Part shown: in pieces, positions 9,924 through 51,890 of the stretch
Layout of the letters: every line of letters begins with the position of its first letter
Numbering within the stretch: the stretch's first letter is position 1
From: Halorubrum salinarum
Lineage (GTDB): Archaea > Halobacteriota > Halobacteria > Halobacteriales > Haloferacaceae
DNA length: 64,000 nucleotides
Direction: 5' to 3'
Assembly: GCF_013267195.1 (NCBI RefSeq)
Contig: NZ_CP053941.1
Coordinates: 1,054,001-1,118,000 of the forward strand
Notes under the pieces: model-generated
What the model saw: the letters and a program-made list of their open reading frames with translations, nothing else
Told to the model about the DNA's origin: nothing
Database searches by the model: none
Position numbers and translations under genes: made by a program

Positions 9924-9935
9924 TATTTATAAACC
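9924..9935 (+). promoter_or_regulatory. TATA box upstream of repeat copy A
   Basis: GCTATTTATAAACC just before copy A of the dispersed element. Copy B is preceded by nearly the same string (GCTATTTATAAA). A plus-strand transcript from this box would start near 9954, within the first hairpin. Confidence 0.5.
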
Positions 9936-9940
9936 GAACT

Positions 9941-10168
9941 GCGGTGGCGCGTGCCTCCGAGTGGCCGCCGAAGGCGGCCGCGAGGAGCACGCGCGAGGGA
10001 GTCGCGAACGAAGTGAGCGACGAGGCTGGGGAGGCGTGAGGAGCCGTGCGGTGGGACTCAAAGGGGCAGTCGCGAGGACGGCGCACGCTCGCCGCGCTCC
10101 TCGTCGCTCGCGTTGCTCGCTCCTGCGGTACTCGCGTCGCCTGCGCCGTCCTCGCGACTGGGGCTTTG
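9941..10168 (+). repeat. Dispersed structured element, copy A
   Basis: First of three related elements (see 32109 and 51597), filling most of the 384-base gap between kynU and the helicase. Hairpins in order: 9947-9954 with 9987-9994 (8 bp); 9961-9969 with 9973-9981 around a GAA loop; 10001-10005 with 10017-10021; then the block GAGGCTGGGGAGGCGTGAGG at 10022-10041, and GGGACTCAAAGGGGCAGT leading into a 19-bp stem, 10067-10085 with 10142-10160. The 56-base segment inside that stem (10086-10141) is the reverse complement of the matching segment in copies B and C. No protein is supported here. It may be an RNA gene or a palindromic mobile element. Confidence 0.85.
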
Positions 10169-32108: not shown

Positions 32109-32438
32109 CGGCGGTCGGCGCGCCCCGGTGAGCGGCCCGAAGGGCCGCGAACCGCCGGTGCGAGGGAGTCAGTCGCCGGAGCGAAGCGACGGCGACTGAC
32201 GAGGCTGGGGAGGCGTGAGGTGCGGTCGCTGTGCGTTGCCGCGAGCGCAGCGAGCGGGAGCACGGAAGTCGCAGCCCGCGCAGCGAACGGAGTGAGCGAG
32301 CAGGAACGTCTTCCGGAGGGGCGGGACGCAAAGGGGCAGTTGCGAGGACAGCGCAGGCGACGTAAGCACCGCAGGAGCGAGTGAAACGAGCGACGAGGAG
32401 CGCAACGAGCGTGCGCTGTCCTCGCGACTGGGGCTTTG
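32109..32438 (+). repeat. Dispersed structured element, copy B
   Basis: Second copy of the element, filling most of the 454-base gap before the antiporter gene. Hairpins: 32132-32138 with 32142-32148 around GAA (sequence differs from copy A but pairing is kept); 32168-32178 with 32190-32200 (11 bp); block GAGGCTGGGGAGGCGTGAGG at 32201-32220; an extra insert of roughly 70 bases absent from copies A and C; GGGACGCAAAGGGGCAGT; then the 19-bp stem 32337-32355 with 32412-32430. In this stem a G-C pair of copy A is replaced by A-T, and one pair is G-U. The 56-base inner segment is 32356-32411. Confidence 0.85.
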
Positions 32439-51596: not shown

Positions 51597-51890
51597 GCGG
51601 TGGCGCGTGCCTGCGAGCGGCCGCCACCGGCGGCCGCGAGTCAGCACGCGCGAGGGAGTCGCTGGCGCCGGCGGCGCCAGCGACGAGGCTGGGGAGGCGT
51701 GAGGTGCTGTGCTGGGTGGGACTCGAAGGGGCAGTCGTGAGGACGGCGCAGGCGTTCACGAGAGCAAAGCTCTCGTGAGCCAATCAGAACGCTCCGCGTT
51801 CTGATGACGACGCAAGCACCGCAAGGAGTGAGCGTAGCGAACGACTGAGGAGCGCAGCGAGCGTGCGCCGTCCTCGCGGCTGGGGCTTCG
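51597..51890 (+). repeat. Dispersed structured element, copy C
   Basis: Third copy, filling most of the 408-base gap after ribB. The first hairpin matches copy A; then 51617-51625 with 51629-51637 (9 bp); 51658-51669 with 51673-51684 (12 bp, sequence unlike copies A and B); block GAGGCTGGGGAGGCGTGAGG at 51685-51704; GGGACTCGAAGGGGCAGT; 19-bp stem 51732-51750 with 51864-51882 including two G-U pairs. The inner segment is 113 bases because it holds two extra perfect 10-bp hairpins (TCACGAGAGC and ATCAGAACGC arms). The remainder matches copy B in orientation. No clear TATA box precedes it. Confidence 0.85.

Follow-up and report, generated by a model that had tools for sequence, protein, structure and literature searches.

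The window analysed here, a stretch of 64,000 nucleotides from the genome of Halorubrum salinarum, carries three copies (A, B and C) of a multi-hairpin element, the parts of which are located as follows (positions in the window).

9926 to 9933, forward strand: archaeal TATA-like box TTTATAAA, 5' of the element, copy A
9947 to 9994, forward strand: hairpin P1 (GCGCGTGC/GCACGCGC) of copy A, from sequence and RNA fold
Within P1, forward strand: inner hairpin P1a of copy A, GGCCGCC-GAA-GGCGGCC with a GNA triloop, from RNA fold and triloop statistics
10001 to 10021, forward strand: hairpin P2 (GTCGC...GCGAC) of copy A, ending exactly at the conserved anchor
10022 to 10041, forward strand: conserved anchor GAGGCTGGGGAGGCGTGAGG of copy A, which sets the orientation of the element
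10067 to 10085, forward strand: left arm of the main hairpin P3 of copy A, one half of a 19-bp perfect inverted repeat
10086 to 10141, reverse strand: inner segment of P3 of copy A, inverted relative to the family standard (47/56 to copy B as reverse complement)
10142 to 10160, forward strand: right arm of P3 of copy A, the other half of the 19-bp perfect inverted repeat
10160 to 10168, forward strand: GGGGCTTTG of copy A, whose GGGGC lies opposite the left-side GGGGC, a mismatch conserved at the P3 base
32200 to 32430, forward strand: copy B, with the anchor at 32200-32219, arms at 32337-32355 and 32412-32430, and a standard inner segment at 32356-32411
51684 to 51882, forward strand: copy C, with the anchor, arms at 51732-51750 and 51864-51882, and a standard inner segment that holds a ~56-nt two-hairpin insert

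The earlier note on this DNA had claimed that the 56 nucleotides between the arms of copy A match those of copy B only as the reverse complement, and our comparison agreed. The reverse complement was identical at 47 of 56 positions, against 14 of 56 in the direct ungapped register, and the best gapped alignments scored +38 and -15, respectively. When copy B was shuffled 20,000 times, the identities to the reverse complement of copy A averaged 18.7 and reached 31 at most. The arms (10067-10085 and 10142-10160) form a perfect 19-bp inverted repeat at exactly these coordinates. The inner segment of copy C (51751-51863), which the note had also likened to B and not to A, reads in the orientation of copy B and carries its extra insert. 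As the sequences that mark the element beyond the arms (GAGGCTGGGGAGGCGTGAGG 5' of them, GGGGCTTTG or GGGGCTTCG 3' of them) are collinear in A, B and C, the flip is confined to the inside of copy A. The same genome holds a second inverted copy (L003, at G000:C1:501132).

Copy A belongs to a Halorubrum family of intergenic elements with several hairpins, which is present in high copy number (~64 copies in this chromosome). Searching the genome (G000) for the anchor CGAGGCTGGGGAGGNGTGAG with up to two mismatches gave 64 copies, and the reversed pattern, used as a control, gave none. All 64 lie on the 2.94-Mb chromosome contig (C1) and none on the smaller contigs C2 and C3 (0.4 Mb), a distribution with a chance of ~3e-4 under uniform placement. 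A complete element spans ~250-330 nt and comprises, in order, P1 with P1a, P2, the anchor, the main hairpin P3 and GGGGCTTTGG, often with a TATA-like box. A TATA-like hexamer was present within 200 nt 5' of the anchor in 91 of 224 elements, mostly 90-120 nt upstream, where shuffled sequences would give 2.2; this count used a loose pattern for the box, since a strict one fitted too few elements. In 163 of the 224 elements, a perfect stem of 5 bp or more (P2) ends at the anchor, with 31 distinct arm sequences; when the position was shifted by 7 nt as a control, six elements had such a stem. The elements are intergenic and avoid divergent gene pairs, lying between convergent genes 20 times and divergent ones five times. 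Between tandem genes we saw no strand preference (16 elements on the gene strand, 21 on the opposite strand), and on these counts we rejected the view of the element as the 3' tail of an mRNA.

Individual elements vary around this layout. Some carry a varying number of ~57-nt tandem tail units downstream of P3 (L124, L085, L103), each containing TTATAA and GGCTGGGGCTTTGGCGGTGTTC or a close variant; the genomes G048 and G022, which are compared below, differ by ~112 nt in this region. In some elements, P3 contains inserted arrays of short perfect hairpins (window 51751-51863; L069, L107, L337, L381), which recur in different elements and often have loops of the GCGAAGC type. In truncated elements (L055, L070, L072, L090, L041, L042), P3 is absent, apparently by deletion between repeated GGGGC or CTTTG.

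In an order-wide sample, the anchor occurred in all 19 Halorubrum genomes (8-162 copies each), in some genomes of the genus g35 and in single genomes of two other genera. Named records with the anchor are mostly from Halorubrum, and also from Haloparvum, Halobellus and Halorussus. The viral contigs searched for the anchor gave no match, and the plasmids searched gave one weak match in Halorussus. A covariance model of P3 matched 108 of 195 genomes and 42 of 66 genera of the order, with weaker, uninspected matches and rough E-values outside Halorubrum; on the strength of these model matches, P3-related hairpins may be general in haloarchaea. Rfam models recognised only a tRNA in the window, and the one match at the element was at chance level, leaving the element with no match above the gathering score. 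Our literature search, including a text search for the anchor sequence, had incomplete coverage and returned no named haloarchaeal repeat of this kind. The multi-hairpin element is apparently undescribed.

The P3 hairpin shows extensive covariation. Among 23 ungapped standard copies, 34 base pairs were formed in 98% of alignment cells, and 20 of the 34 were changed on both sides, a number reached in none of 500 shuffles; the signal collapsed when the partner was slid by 1-3 columns. In the apical part of P3, GA/GA internal loops alternate with covarying 2-bp steps, and the hairpin loops are often GNA triloops. GA/GA was the commonest internal loop in 104 standard copies (179 occurrences), and P1 and P2 contained a further 288 GA/GA loops, with GNA accounting for 241 of 412 triloops. 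Tandem G-A pairs are known to be stable, and so are GNA triloops, above all in single-stranded DNA. The GGGGC on both sides of the P3 base was invariant in the 23 copies. In several other copies (L134, L141, L158, L283-L287), the right-side GGGGC has become GCCCC, which perfects the mismatch at the base as if it had been recopied from the left; in L288 the same change lies in a downstream tail unit.

Since the GA/GA and GNA motifs are conserved on one strand, the conservation is strand-specific, and the inner segment therefore has a right and a wrong orientation. Inversion weakens the fold and converts the GA/GA loops to TC/TC mismatches. When folded with RNA parameters, 98 of 104 standard copies lost stability if their inner segment was flipped in silico, and all 19 inverted copies tested gained stability if flipped back; DNA parameters pointed in the same direction (86 of 104 and 18 of 19, respectively). 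The covarying pairs together with conserved unpaired motifs on one strand are what is expected of a structured single strand, either RNA or single-stranded DNA. The element most likely acts as a structured RNA or as extruded single-stranded DNA.

In 52 genomes of the genus, the exact pattern of the standard orientation had 1207 matches. The mirror pattern had 31, of which five were removed on reading as standard copies with a perfected palindrome (L134, L141, L158), coding (L148) or truncated (L150), leaving 26 true inverted copies in 20 of the 52 genomes (one of them, G014:C102, was judged from the matched string only). The inverted orientation thus makes up ~2% of the copies genus-wide and the standard one ~98%. 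The breakpoints lie at the arm ends, also in copies with arms of 12-13 bp (L138, L139, L155) or with extra hairpins, and inserts were flipped together with the core in L133, L140 and L154. Hairpins are awkward for polymerases and assemblers, and an assembly or sequencing artefact could be suspected at such sites; given that inverted copies occur in 20 independent genomes and that the inner segment of copy A differs from every standard relative compared, this explanation is scarcely conceivable. The latter difference also indicates that the inversion in copy A has aged.

Orthologous loci show that the flips happen in place and leave the inverted repeat of the arms intact. At the L153 locus, the inverted state is found in G048 and the standard one in G022 and G010. 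Once reverse-complemented, the inner segment of G048 equals that of G022 at every position (58/58, against 32/58 directly) and in length; the collinear flanks share 99% and 96% identity, and both bases of one arm pair have changed in a compensated manner. G010 has the same inner segment in the standard orientation plus an insert, and among the loci fetched this inner sequence is confined to the L153 locus. Two further loci gave similar pictures: at L149, inverted G042 matches G022 at 53 of 56 positions in reverse complement, and at L003 the inverted copy of the present genome matches G022 at 52 of 56, with an identical left arm (18/18). The single arm mismatch of G022 at the latter locus is a perfect pair in the present genome, and in two of the three in-place cases (L003 and G042) the arms pair perfectly at a position that is mismatched in the standard ortholog.

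The earlier note had proposed to compare the locus of copy A in close relatives. It is standard in five of them (G001, G003, G019, G047, G050) and standard with inserts in G036, and the inner segment of copy A matches the standard copies at 45 of 56 to 52 of 66 positions as the reverse complement. G023 is inverted at this locus, and its well-supported sister G001 (100/100) is standard, so the orientation has changed at least twice there. It is possible that G000 and G023 share one ancestral flip that was then reversed in G001; given the standard state of G001, such a shared old inversion is not required. At the four other inverted loci examined (L149, L153, L003 and L154), the inverted copy is a singleton among the readable orthologs.

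A different origin for the inverted segments would be the insertion or pasting of a hairpin module from another copy in either orientation, by transposition or ectopic gene conversion. Arm types do differ at orthologous loci, and between G048 and G022 (L335 and L336) the whole of P1a differs, arms and loop alike, next to an identical P2 and anchor, which suggests that hairpins may be exchanged one by one between copies. Nevertheless, random insertion would yield orientations of about 50:50, and the 58/58 match between G048 and G022 represents an unchanged, locus-specific inner segment flipped on the spot, which refutes pasting for that locus. We thus regard module pasting as quite improbable in general. 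For copy A it is possible: because both its arms and its inner segment differ from those of all orthologs, and because hairpins appear to be swapped wholesale, ectopic conversion from another inverted copy may have taken place there.

The earlier note had left a choice between an invertible switch and the trace of an earlier inversion by way of the inverted-repeat arms. The second reading is supported, also by the loci at which the same inner segment is flipped in place. The findings that the note had named as refuting did not appear: the two orientations are far from equally common, the breakpoints fall at the arms, and no alignment in the direct orientation does better. The first reading is not supported. 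A switch flipped by a site-specific invertase would produce phase variation, as at the invertible promoters of fimS and the flg switch, and such loci, well known in bacteria, resemble the present element in that a segment bounded by inverted repeats is found in both orientations. In phase variation, both orientations would be expected at comparable frequency; we counted 1207 standard and 26 inverted copies across genome assemblies, and the inverted copy was a singleton among orthologs at four of five loci. Conserved recombinase sites would be expected in the repeats, but the arm sequence varies freely beside the breakpoint (GACGGCGCA, GCGACCAGA and ACTCGTCACA in different copies), leaving a few outer bases at most as a common site. 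Unlike fimS and the flg switch, the segment is noncoding and strongly one-sided in orientation, we recognised neither a promoter nor a reading frame in it, and its inversion weakens the fold conserved in the family. An invertase is therefore very improbable. The flipped copy A appears as a rare evolutionary accident rather than a genetic switch, and cautions that an inverted segment between inverted repeats need not be a switch.

We consider it fairly probable that copy A is a family member in which the content between the arms of the main hairpin was inverted by a rare flip, most likely through template switching during replication (a loop inversion), and that such flips are usually lost again. 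Replication would stall at the extruded hairpin, and the nascent strand would switch to the complementary template through one arm, copy the loop backwards and switch back through the other arm, leaving the loop inverted and the arms retained. The same arm-templated copying would allow the arms to change in sequence and yet stay complementary, and could explain the few perfected GGGGC/GGGGC mismatches. The inverted state would damage the strand-specific fold and be lost by selection, reversal or gene conversion, so that it would stay near 2%. The predicted structural cost fits inverted alleles that are young and disfavoured.

The main rival, reciprocal homologous recombination (by RadA or strand annealing) between the inverted arms, would give products identical to those of template switching, and for this reason the copying mechanism is one that we can only infer. 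Perfect arms of at least 16 bp are somewhat commoner in inverted copies (16 of 22) than in standard ones (53 of 114; Fisher's test, p=0.035), which speaks for such recombination. On the other hand, for recombination of the RecA type, 12-19 bp is a short arm length at a spacing of only 50-120 bp. Arm recombination alone also leaves the perfected GGGGC/GCCCC arms and the compensatory arm changes unexplained, and we consider it unlikely.

Loop inversion is one of the described products of template switching, and a loop flipped in place is as the mechanism predicts (Monttinen and Loytynoja 2022, PMC8794818). In the RNA genes of that study, as in our family, the loop is reverse-complemented and the stem is kept, sometimes with compensatory changes in the stem, and the events fall mostly on terminal branches. 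The G048/G022 pair shows all of the corresponding features, namely a reverse-complemented loop, retained stem halves and loop length, and collinear flanks. The published cases comprise 69 loop-only events in rRNA, typically with 4-nt loops and also with loops of 7-8 nt, plus a primate microRNA (PMC8794818); unlike these, the segments described here measure ~50-120 nt and were seen in 26 copies of a single archaeal repeat family. The change of GGGGC to GCCCC in several copies, by which mismatched arms become perfect, resembles quasi-palindrome correction in template-switch mutagenesis, judged in our case by comparing sequences.

As high-copy intergenic palindromic repeats with composite hairpins, the elements are reminiscent of bacterial REP, REPIN and BIME sequences. 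REPs and REPINs are short (20-40 bp), often paired palindromes that a RAYT transposase mobilises; the haloarchaeal element is much larger, at ~250-330 nt with several hairpins, and has its own architecture of GA/GA loops and GNA triloops. In an archaeal genus that has been studied well, the family reveals a structured element of high copy number that is apparently without a name. It bears on the question of how stems can stay perfect while changing in sequence, for which template switching has been proposed, with loop-inversion evidence mostly from tiny loops. Across 52 related genomes, the family supplies ~1,200 natural hairpins built to a single design, along with loop flips that are long and unmistakable, in-place pairs of standard and inverted copies, and a structural cost that can be measured. 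It is attractive to speculate that it represents an undescribed haloarchaeal family of structured single strands (non-coding RNA or DNA hairpins extruded in vivo), built from GNA triloops and tandem G-A pairs that stack and present in up to ~160 copies per chromosome, and that template switching during replication renews its hairpins, long loop inversions being the visible by-product; we advance this broader proposal tentatively, as a serious possibility rather than the probable case. If it is true, the family would provide a natural archaeal test bed for the persistence of perfect stems.
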